Positions 12,881 through 28,765 of a stretch of 38,948 nt of DNA are shown here, piece by piece. The notes beneath the pieces are model-generated. The model worked only from the letters and a program-made list of their open reading frames with translations. It was not told where the DNA came from and ran no database searches. The stretch is from Chloroflexota bacterium (GTDB lineage: Bacteria; Chloroflexota; Anaerolineae; Aggregatilineales; Phototrophicaceae). Position numbers and translations under genes: made by a program. Every line of letters begins with the position of its first letter. The stretch's first letter is position 1. The stretch covers positions 1 to 38,948 of the forward strand of contig RFHA01000066.1 of the NCBI GenBank assembly GCA_003696565.1, in the 5' to 3' direction.

Positions 12881-14995
12881 TTATGACTGTTTCTGCTGGT
12901 TTTGCATCTCATCAATAAAACTCTCTGTAAATTCGCCGTCGTTTGTTAGGCGGACTTGTGGGGGGATATATTCATCAAGTTCTTCAATTTTACGCTTTTT
13001 AACAGGTTGATTGATGCCAACCAGCTCACGCTCCCGGGCAATTTCACGCTGAATTGCCCGTTCCCGGTCATCAATACCCGTCAGCCAGGTGAGTATATTC
13101 ACCACACCATGAATCAGCACAGAGACATACATCAAAATCATCACAATATACGGCACCGGCGGCAATATTAACGGCACACGAGACGTTTCATCTAATCTGT
13201 GAAGGTTTTGGATCATTTCACTAATCGGCTCCCAGCCTATAGAAACCACGACAGTAATCGCCGTCGCCGCCACAAAATGAGATAACAACGCCACAATTTT
13301 ATTGGCACGTTTTTCTACACTTCGCCGCACACGCTGATATGTCGCATCACTGACCTCATCCTGCCAGTTTTCACCATAATACATCACCATATCGCGCTGA
13401 ATACGCTCTCGCTTACGCCGTAACCGCGCCCCGGAGTTATAAAATACACGCAAAGCATGGCTAACCAACCCACTACCCCATATCAAAGCAACAAACATCG
13501 CCCAAGGTAACTGAGCCAAAGGCATTAACGCCTCACCAATTTGTGCACCACGCGCCCCAACTTCGGCAGCAAACTCTGGCGAGCTTAAGCCTTGAACAAT
13601 TGCCAAACTTGTCATCTCTTGAAAGCTGAATAACACTAGCATAACAAGGAAATAAACCAGTGTGTGGATAATCAAACCGCGCCGTTGTCTAAGCCGTTTT
13701 TTGGCGCGTCGGCGGATAGAAGCCTCATCCGTCCCCCATTCACTGTTAATCTCTACAACACGTCTGTTTGAATAACGCGGTGTTGCCGGTTCTTCTGCTT
13801 GTGTTGATGGCACAGGGGAAGGGATTTTACTCAAATTTTGGCTAAGGTTAGAACTAAGGTTAGTTGGTAATACCCGCTGAACATCTTCCCGAATGTCATA
13901 AACAACTTCTTCAAAACGTGTGCGGAAATTACGATCTCGCCATTGCTGACGCATATCCTCAATTGCCAAACGAACGCGCTGCACAAACAGTTCCACCCAT
14001 TCTATCGGGCTTAGGTTCAACGTTGGTGGGTTGTCTACAATTGGAACAACGACCACCCGTTTACCAAATTGATCCACCCGTAAACTATTGTATTGTCCAC
14101 CACCGGGTGTAAATTGTTGTAGATGAGATGCCAATTGTTTGGCTTTTTCTACACGACTGGAATCTAACTCTTGCAACCCTGAATCCATCAGTGCGTTTTC
14201 AAAAGCACGCATCAGATCATTCGGGGTTTTATAACGCTTGTTAGGGTCTTTTTCTAAAGCCTTTAACAAGACATTTTCCACTTGTAAGGGTAAATCTTGG
14301 TTTAAATCTGTTGGGCGGGGTGGTGCAGCATAAATCTGCTTATGGATAATGGCATAGGCTGATTCACCCGTAAAAGGCACCCGCCCCACCATCATCTCAT
14401 ATAAAATCACACCAATAGCATAAACATCTGTGCGCGCGTCCAAATTTGGCAAGCCTTGCGCTTGCTCCGGCGACATATAAAACGGTGTGCCGAGTGTCGT
14501 ATCTACACTGAGAGTTGATTCACCTTGTTGTGCTATCCGTGCCAGCCCAAAATCGGTTAAATAAGGGATTCCTTCAGAATCAATGATAATGTTAGACGGT
14601 TTGATATCGCGATGTAACACCCCTTTACTATGGGCATAAGTCAGCGCATCACAAATGGCAGACATCACTTGCCGAATCTCTGGCAAGGTCAGCGGTTGCT
14701 CCTCCATATAGAATTTGAGCGTGCGTCCCTCAACATATTTCATCACCAAATAAGGCTGCCCATTGAACGTATCAGAATCATAGACAGGTACGATATTCGG
14801 GTGGTCTAAACTGGCGACAATCCGCGCTTCGCGTTCAAACCGTGCCACAAAATTGTTATCCTGCATAAACGTTTGATGCATGAGTTTGATCGCTACATAA
14901 CGATCTAATTTGGGTTGGTGCGCTTTGAATACTGTTGCCATGCCACCCGCACCAACCTGTTCCATGATTTGATATTGCCCAATTGTTTGAAGCAT
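12881..14995 (-). CDS. Ser/Thr protein kinase with two C-terminal 2TM modules
   Basis: A Hanks-type kinase of about 704 residues. The glycine loop VGAGGMATV lies near the N-terminus, the catalytic lysine is in VAIKLMH, the loop is HRDIKPSN, then DFGLA and MSPEQ. A linker of about 150 residues contains a short NLS repeat (NLSSNLSQNLSK). Two consecutive modules follow, each a basic helix, a hydrophobic hairpin and a basic tail (RRAKKRLRQRR... and RRSVEKRANK...). These match the pattern of the 2TM domain, present twice. The gene starts 72 bases after the cellobiose phosphorylase stop. The ATG at 14995 has GGGA 6 bases upstream. An alternative ATG at 15022 would leave almost no leader after the TATAAT at 15030-15035. 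It is convergent with the long histidine kinase, 10 bases apart. Confidence 0.88.
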   Translation of the reverse strand: MLQTIGQYQIMEQVGAGGMATVFKAHQPKLDRYVAIKLMHQTFMQDNNFVARFEREARIVASLDHPNIVPVYDSDTFNGQPYLVMKYVEGRTLKFYMEEQPLTLPEIRQVMSAICDALTYAHSKGVLHRDIKPSNIIIDSEGIPYLTDFGLARIAQQGESTLSVDTTLGTPFYMSPEQAQGLPNLDARTDVYAIGVILYEMMVGRVPFTGESAYAIIHKQIYAAPPRPTDLNQDLPLQVENVLLKALEKDPNKRYKTPNDLMRAFENALMDSGLQELDSSRVEKAKQLASHLQQFTPGGGQYNSLRVDQFGKRVVVVPIVDNPPTLNLSPIEWVELFVQRVRLAIEDMRQQWRDRNFRTRFEEVVYDIREDVQRVLPTNLSSNLSQNLSKIPSPVPSTQAEEPATPRYSNRRVVEINSEWGTDEASIRRRAKKRLRQRRGLIIHTLVYFLVMLVLFSFQEMTSLAIVQGLSSPEFAAEVGARGAQIGEALMPLAQLPWAMFVALIWGSGLVSHALRVFYNSGARLRRKRERIQRDMVMYYGENWQDEVSDATYQRVRRSVEKRANKIVALLSHFVAATAITVVVSIGWEPISEMIQNLHRLDETSRVPLILPPVPYIVMILMYVSVLIHGVVNILTWLTGIDDRERAIQREIARERELVGINQPVKKRKIEELDEYIPPQVRLTNDGEFTESFIDEMQNQQKQS

Positions 14996-15029
14996 GGATA
15001 TTCCCGTGTGTCGTTTGACCATTTGCCCT

Positions 15030-25014: not shown

Positions 25015-25035
25015 CTCTCAATCACCTATTGAGAG
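25015..25035. terminator. Hairpin between convergent esterase and Ser/Thr kinase genes
   Basis: An 8-bp perfect stem, CTCTCAAT/ATTGAGAG, with a 5-base loop, spanning the kinase stop codon. T runs are weak on both sides, so termination strength is uncertain. Confidence 0.4.
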
Positions 25036-26000
25036 GCAAGAACTAACAGAATCAACGCCAAGATAACGCCACAACCAGCTACCAACCACCAATAACGGCG
25101 GATAGCGTGAAATGATTGTGGCGATATGGCAGGAGCAGGTGAATTCATTTGTAGCGACCGGGAGGGCATGAACACCTGCACAAAATCCGCTATAAATGCC
25201 CCAGCAGTTGGATAGCGTTGGGATGGAATTTTTGCCAGTGCCCGCGCTATGATTGCATCAATTTGTGGCGGCAACATTGGCATCACCTCTGTTACACGAG
25301 GAATAGGCGCGCTCATGTGCATAATGCCAATCTGCTGCTCATGCGCACTATCATAAGGATACCGCAACGTTAACAATACATACGCCAAAATACCGAGCGA
25401 ATACACATCTGAGCGTCCATCAATATCCGCCTTCCCTGCTACCTGTTCTGGAGACATATAATGAATAGTCCCCGGCATTGTCACACCGACAACCGTAATC
25501 TGGGATCGCCCAGCAATACGCGCCACACCAAAATCCGCTAAATAGACATTTTCCGCCCGGTCCATCAAAATATTCCCCGGTTTAATATCTCGATGCACCA
25601 CGCCACGACTGTGCGCATAATCCAACGCGCTAGCCAATTGACTGAGCCAGCGAATGACTTGGTCAATTGGTAAAGGGGCACGTGCCGCCTTTAGACGATC
25701 AATCAGCGTGCCGCCATCCATCAGGCGCATCGTCATATAAAGTTGATCGTCAATCCGCCCGGCATCATATAACGGCACAATATGCTGGTGATTCAACGCG
25801 CGGATAATTTGCGTTTCTCGTTCAAAGCGTTTGACAATATCTCGGTCGCGGGTTAGCTCTTGATGTAAAGCCTTAAAAGCAACATCAACCCCACGATATT
25901 TATCATACGCTCGATAAACCGTCGCCATCCCCCCTTCGGCAATCACCTCACGGATGACATAATTACCAACTGTTCGGTTTACCAGTGTCGCATCACTCAT
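25026..26000 (-). CDS. Tail-anchored Ser/Thr protein kinase
   Basis: A 324-residue Hanks-type kinase: glycine loop IAEGGMATV, K43 in VAFKAL, HRDIKPGN with D138, DFG at 156-158, and MSPEQ. The kinase domain ends near 275. A Ser/Pro-rich stretch leads to a single C-terminal membrane helix (about 303-322) and only LASQ remains outside, so it has no sensor domain of its own. Its ATG overlaps the end of the TIR gene by 8 bases (ATGAGTGA), so both are translated together. This makes the TIR protein the obvious partner, perhaps supplying the outside SH3-like sensor that the kinase lacks. Confidence 0.9.
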   Translation of the reverse strand: MSDATLVNRTVGNYVIREVIAEGGMATVYRAYDKYRGVDVAFKALHQELTRDRDIVKRFERETQIIRALNHQHIVPLYDAGRIDDQLYMTMRLMDGGTLIDRLKAARAPLPIDQVIRWLSQLASALDYAHSRGVVHRDIKPGNILMDRAENVYLADFGVARIAGRSQITVVGVTMPGTIHYMSPEQVAGKADIDGRSDVYSLGILAYVLLTLRYPYDSAHEQQIGIMHMSAPIPRVTEVMPMLPPQIDAIIARALAKIPSQRYPTAGAFIADFVQVFMPSRSLQMNSPAPAISPQSFHAIRRYWWLVAGCGVILALILLVLASQ

Positions 26001-26976
26001 CAGATACTGCTTCTAACACGTCTGCCGGCAACCAGCCAATAATGCCCTGTGGTTCATACCATATATAAAACCACAACCGCCCATCAACAATTTCCCAAAC
26101 AGGCATCACATCATCTTCATTTTCTTCATCCAAATAAGTCAGCACAACGCGCTTACCAGCAGCAAGTGTATGCGGCTCATATGGTTCACCGCCGGGTTCA
26201 TTGCTGACGGCAGTTGTTTCTGTAAGATATAACTCCTGATGAAGATGCCAACCAAACGGTGCCCTACCATTCGCAATATCTGTTTGAGCCACTTCTAAAT
26301 CATCCAAGTTAGATTGAGGGGAATCATCTGTATTGATGATTAAGGTTGCCAGCAATACACCTACCACAATTAATATCGCCAATATCCCACCAACTAACAA
26401 GCCACTAAGGGCAACCCCATCTCTAGGAGTTTCATACTTGGCTGATGGCACACCAACCTGAAAACCTGTTTTATCTTGATGAGGATCAGCTGTTTCTTGA
26501 TAGGAAACACGCTTATCCGCATTTTGTTTGGTGACAATCTTATTGAGTTGGTCAATCAACCGTTCCACATCACGCCTAAAATCTGGATCATGACGAATCA
26601 CAACCGCGTTACGATATGCTAACGCCTGCAAATCGTCTGGCAGGTTATGCGCCGTGGGCATTTGTGCCCCATCCACCAACACCGGGATCACAGTCATGCC
26701 CTCATGCTGTAAGGCAGTTGCAACTTCAAACCGGACAAAATCGTCATCATCAAACAACCGCTTATCTTGTGCCCATTCTTTACCAATTAGCACCAACAAT
26801 ACATCGCACTCATCCAACGCTTCCCGCAAAACTGTACGAAAATCTGCACCAGGCGTAATATCGTCTACATCTTTAAAGACGTTGTCGTCGCCAAACGCCA
26901 TTTCTAACCGATCATAAAGCCGACCGGCTATTGCACGTGTATCTGACCTGCGATATGAGATAAATATTTTTGGCAT
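25993..26976 (-). CDS. TIR-domain membrane protein with external SH3-like domain
   Basis: A 327-residue protein. TIR domain 1-145: IFISYRRSD start, VFKDVDDITPGADF, CDVLLVLIG and DFVRFEVATAL. E84 is at the position of the catalytic Glu of NAD-cleaving TIR domains. A charged linker leads to one membrane helix (189-213). The outside part (about 248-323) resembles a bacterial SH3 domain, with WEIVDGRLWFYIWYEPQGIIGWLPADVL. TIR domains hydrolyse NAD or act as adaptors, and which applies here is not shown. It is encoded upstream of a tail-anchored Ser/Thr kinase with 8 bases of overlap, and divergent from pspA. Confidence 0.85.
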   Translation of the reverse strand: MPKIFISYRRSDTRAIAGRLYDRLEMAFGDDNVFKDVDDITPGADFRTVLREALDECDVLLVLIGKEWAQDKRLFDDDDFVRFEVATALQHEGMTVIPVLVDGAQMPTAHNLPDDLQALAYRNAVVIRHDPDFRRDVERLIDQLNKIVTKQNADKRVSYQETADPHQDKTGFQVGVPSAKYETPRDGVALSGLLVGGILAILIVVGVLLATLIINTDDSPQSNLDDLEVAQTDIANGRAPFGWHLHQELYLTETTAVSNEPGGEPYEPHTLAAGKRVVLTYLDEENEDDVMPVWEIVDGRLWFYIWYEPQGIIGWLPADVLEAVSDE

Positions 26977-27047
26977 TGGTCATCGCTCACTTTTTTTGAG
27001 TATCTTAACCGATGTATTTTATACAAGCAAGCAAAATTGCAACAACA

Positions 27048-27056
27048 TGATATAAT
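27048..27056 (+). promoter_or_regulatory. Extended -10 promoter of pspA
   Basis: TGATATAAT is an exact extended -10 element (TGnTATAAT), about 40 bases before the pspA ATG. No good -35 is visible, which such promoters do not need. Confidence 0.55.
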
Positions 27057-27095
27057 CGGTATGAAAAAGCATGGATTGAAAGGATTAGTCTAGCG

Positions 27096-27791
27096 ATGCC
27101 CTCATTCTTTGAAAAAGTACGCACGCTCATCAACGCCAATTTGCACGGGATTGTTGACCGCGCGTTAGAAGCCAATTCGTTAAAAGTCATGGATGAATAC
27201 ATCCGCCAAGCTGAGCAAAACCTGGAAGCATTGGAAGATTCCGCAGCAACAGTTGGCGGCTCGGTGCGCACCCTCAAGCGCAAGTATGAAGAATTCGCCG
27301 CTGCCGCAGATAAACTAGATCGTGATATCGATACGCTTATTATGCGTGGCAAAGATGACCTTGCCGCTGCCGCCCAGGCAGAACTCAACACTAAACAGCA
27401 GCTTGCCCAACAATATTATGAACAGTGGCAAGAACAACAAAAACAATATGATGCCATGCTGAAGATGCGCCGTCAGTTAGAAGCCAAAATGACGACCATC
27501 AAGCAAGAACGTGAGCATTTGCGTTCATTGATTGAACTTGCAGAAGCAAAGAAAGTGACCACAAAAACAATCAAGAGTCTGGATGGTCTTGCCAAAACAG
27601 GCGATGCAGAAATCAGCAGCATGGCAGAAAAAATCCGCGCGCGGTTGGACCGTGAAGATGCCCGCCTAGATATGGCAACCTCACGCCTCACCGATGAAAT
27701 TGATGAAGCTGTTGGGCAAAGTGAAATTGACCTGCAATTGGCAGAACGCAAACGTCGGTTAGGTTTAGCTGGCGGTGAATCCGGCGAGTAG
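27096..27791 (+). CDS. pspA: PspA/IM30 (ESCRT-III-like) membrane maintenance protein
   Basis: A 231-residue, almost wholly helical protein of the PspA/Vipp1 family, which coats and repairs stressed membranes. The N-terminal amphipathic helix is MPSFFEKVRTLINANLHGIVDRA, followed by LKVMDEYIRQAEQNLEAL, a region matching the family core. Long coiled-coil helices then run to the end. Length is typical. An AAGGA ribosome site lies 12 bases before the ATG. It is followed by a gene for a two-helix membrane coiled-coil protein on the same strand and is divergent from the TIR/kinase pair. I see no PspF-, PspB- or PspC-like gene nearby. Confidence 0.9.
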   Translation: MPSFFEKVRTLINANLHGIVDRALEANSLKVMDEYIRQAEQNLEALEDSAATVGGSVRTLKRKYEEFAAAADKLDRDIDTLIMRGKDDLAAAAQAELNTKQQLAQQYYEQWQEQQKQYDAMLKMRRQLEAKMTTIKQEREHLRSLIELAEAKKVTTKTIKSLDGLAKTGDAEISSMAEKIRARLDREDARLDMATSRLTDEIDEAVGQSEIDLQLAERKRRLGLAGGESGE

Positions 27792-27940: not shown

Positions 27941-28765
27941 ATGTCTGAAAAAATTTCAAAGGATGAGATTCGTAGTCGTGCTGTTGGTGCGGTATTGCAA
28001 CGGGCTATTTTTAGCTGGCAAGTTGGGATCACGGTCATTTTTACGCTGCTATTATTCGCCCTGGCTCCACAGCCATTTGATGGCTGGCAAAATTGGTTTT
28101 GGTTGGTCGGTGGTGGGCTAACAGCAGGGGCGTTTGTTTTATCTACCCTGACAGACGAAGAAGCCACGCAAGAGGCAATCGCACGTCAGTTTGAGCAGCA
28201 GTTTGACCTGGGTCAAATTAAAAATCGTGTTTCACGTAAACGCATTGAAGACGCAATGGAATATCGCCGTAATATGATGACGCTAGCAAAACGCGCCCGG
28301 GGCGCACTACGTGCCAGCCTGTTACAATCTGTTGAGGATGTTAATGACTGGATCGCCCACATGTACAGCCTGGCGTTACAAATTGATTCATTTGAGGAAA
28401 ATGAGCTAGTCGAGCGTGACCGCCGCATGGTGCCGCAACAACTAGATAAAGTCCGCATCCGCATGGAACGTGAACAAGACCCAGAAGTGCGACGAGAACT
28501 AGAACGCCAGGTTCAACAACTTGAACAACAGCTCGCCAATTTAGAAGCCACCGTCAACGGCGTAAAACGGGCAGAAATCCAGTTAGAAACCACGCTATCC
28601 TCCCTGGCAACGGTCTATGCACAAATGTCCCGCTTGGGTACCAAAGAAGTGGACAGTGGACGGGCACAACGCCTCCGGCTAGAAATTCAGGACGAGATCA
28701 ACAGCTTGCAAGATACCATTGAAGCGATGGACGATGTACAAGCGCAAAGCTTACGGTTACGCTAA
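27941..28765 (+). CDS. Membrane-anchored coiled-coil protein next to pspA, unknown function
   Basis: A 274-residue protein I do not recognise as a named family. Two hydrophobic segments (about 22-43 and 51-70) form an N-terminal membrane hairpin. The remaining 200 residues are predicted helical, with heptad-like stretches (REQDPEVRRELERQVQQLEQQLANLEA and later DEINSLQDTIEAMDDV). The cytoplasmic coiled coil could bind PspA, which also forms coiled coils. The gap from pspA is 149 bases and holds a hairpin, so co-transcription is likely but not certain. Its stop codon overlaps that of the convergent hydrolase gene. Confidence 0.7.
   Translation: MSEKISKDEIRSRAVGAVLQRAIFSWQVGITVIFTLLLFALAPQPFDGWQNWFWLVGGGLTAGAFVLSTLTDEEATQEAIARQFEQQFDLGQIKNRVSRKRIEDAMEYRRNMMTLAKRARGALRASLLQSVEDVNDWIAHMYSLALQIDSFEENELVERDRRMVPQQLDKVRIRMEREQDPEVRRELERQVQQLEQQLANLEATVNGVKRAEIQLETTLSSLATVYAQMSRLGTKEVDSGRAQRLRLEIQDEINSLQDTIEAMDDVQAQSLRLR

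Follow-up and report, generated by a model that had tools for sequence, protein, structure and literature searches.

Do two overlapping genes for membrane proteins, one carrying a TIR domain and the other a Ser/Thr kinase domain, encode the halves of a single signalling switch, or have two unrelated proteins come to share a transcript? The question is raised by a gene pair in a 38,948-nucleotide stretch of DNA from a Chloroflexota bacterium (contig RFHA01000066.1; the whole stretch is referred to here as the window). A reading made from the sequence alone had taken the pair to be a two-protein switch, with the TIR protein supplying the outside sensor and one partner controlling the other. In bacteria, TIR enzymes are familiar chiefly from intracellular phage defence. 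SARM1, the human axon-death enzyme, has a TIR domain that is an NAD+ hydrolase.

Both window proteins are built of already known kinds of parts. Diverse TIR-domain architectures have been documented in bacteria (PMC7075850), and TIR and kinase domains occur among the conflict-system effectors of multicellular bacteria, including chloroflexi (PMC7159879, PMC8195603). In the literature searched, which excluded most subscription journals, we found no description of a TIR-TM-SH3 receptor with a tail-anchored kinase, of a TIR protein linked to PspA, or of the kinase-TIR-TM-TPR fusions discussed below.

Architecture of the receptor and the kinase

The TIR-TM-SH3-like receptor gene (25993..26976, minus strand; 327 residues, PF13676 match) and the gene for the tail-anchored Ser/Thr kinase, which has no ectodomain (25026..26000, minus strand; 324 residues, PF00069 match), overlap by 8 bp at 25993..26000 on the minus strand (ATGAGTGA), the same overlap as had been noted before, and this makes co-translation of the two proteins probable. 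Each protein has one hydrophobic helix. In the receptor, hydropathy and the structural model both place it at about residues 192-214 (26335..26403, minus strand), and the flanking charges (N-terminal 0, C-terminal -6) are compatible with an N-in/C-out topology. The kinase helix, located by hydropathy, spans about residues 302-324 (25029..25097, minus strand), leaving at most a few residues beyond it, in line with the four counted previously. The pair is flanked by a convergent hydrolase gene and, at its other end, by a divergent pspA, and the surrounding window genes have housekeeping, transport and stress functions. A further Ser/Thr kinase of 713 residues, matching the 2TM domain PF13239, is encoded at 12881-15022 of the window.

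The cytoplasmic part of the receptor is a SARM1-like TIR domain (residues 1-150; 26527..26976, minus strand) that matches TIR_2 (PF13676, E 2.4e-15) over residues 4-138. Human SARM1 TIR is its top PDB match by sequence (phmmer E 3.2e-9). A full-length receptor model, built from 15 related sequences and of high confidence across the TIR part, likewise has SARM1 TIR structures as its top matches (Foldseek E 1.5e-9, TMt 0.84-0.86). The receptor motif DFVRFE84VATAL aligns with SARM1 DWVHKEIVTAL, which puts E84 (codon 26725..26727, minus strand) on the catalytic Glu, as the sequence-only reading had proposed. Of 112 TIR domains gathered from the bacterium's own genome, its relatives and GTDB genomes, 107 could be aligned at this position, and 104 of these keep the Glu. 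Taken together, the SARM1-like fold and the retained Glu suggest that the window TIR domain is equipped for NAD chemistry.

Searching the genome contigs with the receptor as the only query gave no match in a first attempt, and plasmid matches fell mainly over the TIR part. Relatives were found in Anaerolineae, Phototrophicales and Aggregatilineales. Single-pass proteins with more than 60 residues past the membrane helix account for 46 of the 112 TIR domains, the window receptor included; most come from Anaerolineae, others from Planctomycetota and Pseudomonadota. The receptor thus points to a large and little-described set of bacterial TIR membrane receptors. In one TIR paralog from the same genome (G000:C200, L092:2536-3927), the TIR domain is joined to a formylglycine-generating-enzyme-like domain (PF03781, E 7.6e-35).

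Beyond the membrane helix, the receptor carries an SH3-like ectodomain (about residues 240-325; 26002..26259, minus strand). Residues 226-327 were modelled as an SH3 fold (AF2, pLDDT 82), and the top 50 PDB matches of this model are all SH3 domains or SH3-containing chains (best E 0.015, probability 1.00); the modest E-values are what so small a fold would be expected to give. Pfam assigned no family to the ectodomain. The combination of PF13676 match, hydropathy and SH3-fold model agrees with the earlier description of the protein as TIR domain, membrane helix and SH3-like domain outside.

The 98 genomes of the bacterial family yielded four convincing sequence relatives of this ectodomain. 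Two belong to TIR-TM proteins from a single sister genus, g18 (L109:3476-4726 and L111:987-2264); the other two are ectodomains of receptor kinases, encoded in the bacterium's own genome (G000:C257, L091:8818-10326) and in genome G006. The receptor shares 36% identity over 78 residues with the ectodomain of the kinase from its own genome (Z 14 above shuffles) and 29% with those of the g18 receptors (pairwise Z about 10); the g18 members were partly found with a profile that already contained the window sequence, and the pairwise scores alone also support them. We considered a kinase with the homologous ectodomain as the direct donor of the receptor SH3-like domain, a point that identities of 36% versus 29% do not decide. 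A weaker SH3-like match (E 6e-5) occurs elsewhere in the same genome in a 69-residue frame (L332, G000:C178:5347-5541), perhaps a fragment.

The kinase domain (residues 14-263; 25212..25961, minus strand) matches Pkinase (PF00069) with E 5.3e-49, and its motifs are complete: VAFK at residues 40-43, HRD at 136-138, DFG at 156-158 and an APE-like SPE at 183-185. The earlier description of a complete kinase is borne out. In the kinase tree, it falls with both SH3-like-ectodomain kinases into one ten-row clade (support 99/100), and most other members of this clade have long ectodomains. Based on this shared clade, the window kinase resembles a receptor kinase that lacks the ectodomain carried by its sisters. 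The PADLOC PD-T4-6 profile matches it with E 3.8e-88, but so do models for other kinases and about 20 PD-T4-6 models that differ among themselves, so the match is generic.

Genomic company of the receptor

Conservation of the pair in relatives had been named as a check on the sequence-only reading. Whole-genome searches of the 98 family genomes found the TIR-kinase pair nowhere else. The TIR-TM-SH3-like protein itself occurs in two further genomes only, G017 and G034, both of genus g18, where the next two genes encode, in this order, another TIR protein (214-216 residues, itself tail-anchored) and a transporter; no kinase lies beside it in either genome, the outcome that was to speak against that reading. 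Two TIR-domain trees left the window TIR unplaced and its orthology with the g18 proteins without resolution. A test of a single clade joining the window and g18 TIRs favours that grouping (p-AU 0.977), the free search compared being a short one. The second TIR and transporter genes of g18 lie at L109:2756-3400 and L109:1061-2752, and at L111:2372-3022 and L111:3027-4544. The L109 transporter has a match to the family of TLC ATP/ADP transporters (PF03219, E 1e-10), and a nucleotide carrier near the two g18 TIR proteins is a possible reading of that match.

We then asked how often the two kinds of gene meet at all. A kinase lies within 600 bp of 3 of 106 distinct TIR genes, the window included, where about 1.5 such cases are expected by chance, given about 33 kinase candidates per average genome of 4.6 Mb and an assumed one gene per kb. 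With a figure this near chance, adjacency by itself is no evidence of coupling. In G029 (L113:5437-11014), a soluble-looking TIR protein is followed by two same-strand kinases; TPR repeats and a von Willebrand A-like match were seen in the first of these.

The other neighbour of the receptor has more to say. Across a divergent intergenic region of 119 bp (26977..27095) lies pspA (27096..27791, plus strand; PF04012, E 5.3e-17), as had been pointed out before. It is followed by CC274 (27941..28765, plus strand), a coiled-coil membrane protein that is a near-universal PspA neighbour in the order. CC274 is present in 135 of 151 genomes, and in the majority of the 40 loci sampled it adjoins pspA; it received no convincing Pfam or NCBIfam name, and we regard it as a candidate conserved PspA partner. 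A promoter scan of the 119-bp region gave no consensus promoter above chance.

In G034 and G017, the TIR-TM-SH3-like gene lies on the strand of CC274 and 12-14 bp downstream of it; in the window, the receptor gene is divergent from pspA-CC274. Among the 40 other CC274 loci no closely related TIR lies alongside, the one weak TIR match being 6 kb off. As it is only the SH3-like-domain TIR proteins that adjoin CC274/PspA, their tie to the membrane-stress locus gives the best supported clue to what the receptor does. The receptor is tied to this locus in two genera; its kinase partner is seen only in the window genome. The membrane-stress link first suggested by pspA alone is therefore strengthened by the two sister-genus genomes, and it raises a testable question, whether a bacterial TIR NADase can be triggered by envelope stress.

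A different kind of evidence comes from single proteins. Kinase-TIR fusions occur in eight family genomes from three genera (L320:5318-8470, L156:4129-5721, L321:4264-7335, L322:4382-7471 and L323:3904-7023 are five of the loci). The five fusions given here have one membrane helix, and most have a long ectodomain. Over the whole set, seven of eight have sequence past the helix, amounting to about 480-500 residues in six, and TPR repeats were seen there in the one fusion scanned (G083). Judged from these predicted proteins, kinase, TIR domain and ectodomain do occur in the family as one polypeptide at one membrane. The catalytic Glu of the fusion TIR is kept in three of the eight and replaced by Gln or Ala in five, so that a kinase-linked TIR need not be an NADase. 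For the proposed two-protein switch, the outcome is divided: that kinase and TIR act together gains indirect support from the eight fusions and from the shared SH3-like domain, and the conservation of the pair did not hold.

A proposed envelope-sensing switch and its rivals

Our preferred reading, held tentatively at a probability of roughly 0.42, is that the pair is a small operon for an envelope-sensing switch, made of a SARM1-type TIR receptor and a lineage-specific kinase regulator. The receptor, with its TIR domain inside, a single membrane helix and the SH3-like domain outside, would sense an envelope signal. Clustering of the receptor would then lead the TIR domain to cleave NAD or to make an NAD-derived signal. 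The active-looking kinase, which its C-terminal helix anchors in the membrane, would take its input from the receptor, on which it probably relies since it has no sensor of its own. By phosphorylation it would set the activity or threshold of the receptor, much as JNK does for SARM1: JNK phosphorylation of SARM1 at Ser-548 is a precedent for activation of a TIR NADase by a kinase (PMC11033528). For the window proteins we infer the NADase activity, the physical contact, and the phosphorylation and its direction. The kinase link raises a testable question of its own, whether bacteria hold a parallel to the kinase control of SARM1-type TIR domains.

A close rival, only somewhat less probable and poorly separated from this reading by the evidence, assigns the receptor alone to a PspA/CC274 membrane-stress module and takes the kinase for an unrelated, lineage-specific neighbour on a shared transcript. 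It is favoured by a receptor-CC274/PspA link kept in two genera beside a kinase link kept in none, and by a genome that encodes about 20 TIR domains as well as some 32 kinase candidates, with adjacency near chance. It accounts less readily for the 8-bp overlap of the two genes, for a kinase without an ectodomain standing next to a protein that bears the homologous one, and for the kinase-TIR fusions elsewhere in the family.

The likeness between the receptor ectodomain and those of the lineage's receptor kinases also allows a more specific and rather unlikely proposal, that of a split receptor. The SH3-like sensor of the receptor kinases would have moved to the TIR protein, the tail-anchored kinase would be signalled in trans by the TIR receptor, and the two would convert an envelope signal into NAD cleavage gated by phosphorylation. 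If true, this would be a bacterial counterpart of the control of SARM1 by a kinase.

The roles could also be reversed, with the TIR domain serving as an assembly scaffold and the kinase as the effector, so that ligand-driven clustering switches on phosphorylation and NAD cleavage is unneeded. The loss of the catalytic Glu from five of the eight fusions would suit such a scaffold; we nevertheless judge it improbable for the window, where the TIR domain keeps its Glu together with 104 of 107 alignable relatives and three of the fusions. Least probable of all is anti-phage abortive infection, in which an infection sensed at the envelope would lead the TIR domain to deplete NAD: the SARM1-type TIR, weak partial matches to the ThsB and ThcB4 defence TIR models and the PD-T4-6 set of PADLOC kinase matches lean towards it, but the ThcB4 score is 55 against a cut-off of 220, the kinase defence models match Hanks kinases generically, the window genes examined include neither ThsA nor another defence partner and are otherwise of housekeeping, transport and stress types, and no relative occurs among 50,697 phage records.

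Comparison with known systems

Three candidate assignments were set aside. Membership in Thoeris was rejected on the ThcB4 score (55 of 220 bits) and on a PADLOC ThsB match that is partial, covering residues 3-63. A Pfam scan of 20 window genes showed no ThsA-type effector, and PADLOC covered the pair. The receptor TIR matches the ThsB/ThcB profiles weakly and partially, and the receptor differs from these proteins by its membrane helix and ectodomain. A phage origin was rejected for want of any match in the phage records. Membership in the PASTA (PknB) kinases was likewise rejected, given a protein that ends with its membrane helix and an NF033483 score of 283 below the cut-off of 450. Like the PknB-type Hanks kinases, the window kinase combines a complete kinase domain with a membrane helix at its C-terminus; unlike them, it has neither PASTA repeats nor another ectodomain.

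In its working, the receptor resembles the Toll-like receptors, which likewise cross the membrane once, between a domain outside and a TIR domain in the cytoplasm, and we claim no common descent from this likeness. The order is reversed in the window protein, with the TIR domain N-terminal and the ectodomain C-terminal, and the ectodomain is SH3-like rather than made of leucine-rich repeats. The kinase-TIR-TM-TPR fusions of Anaerolineae, from the same bacterial family (represented by L320), also bring kinase and TIR domain together at one membrane receptor. They differ from the pair in being one polypeptide, in having a TPR ectodomain and, for five of eight, in lacking the catalytic Glu.

The nearest known counterpart of the TIR domain itself is that of SARM1, its top PDB match by sequence and by structure, with the same fold and the same position of the catalytic Glu. 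The aromatic residue ahead of this Glu is Trp in SARM1 and Phe in the receptor (DFVRFE). SARM1 has ARM and SAM domains; in their stead, the receptor has a membrane helix together with an SH3-like domain on the outside.
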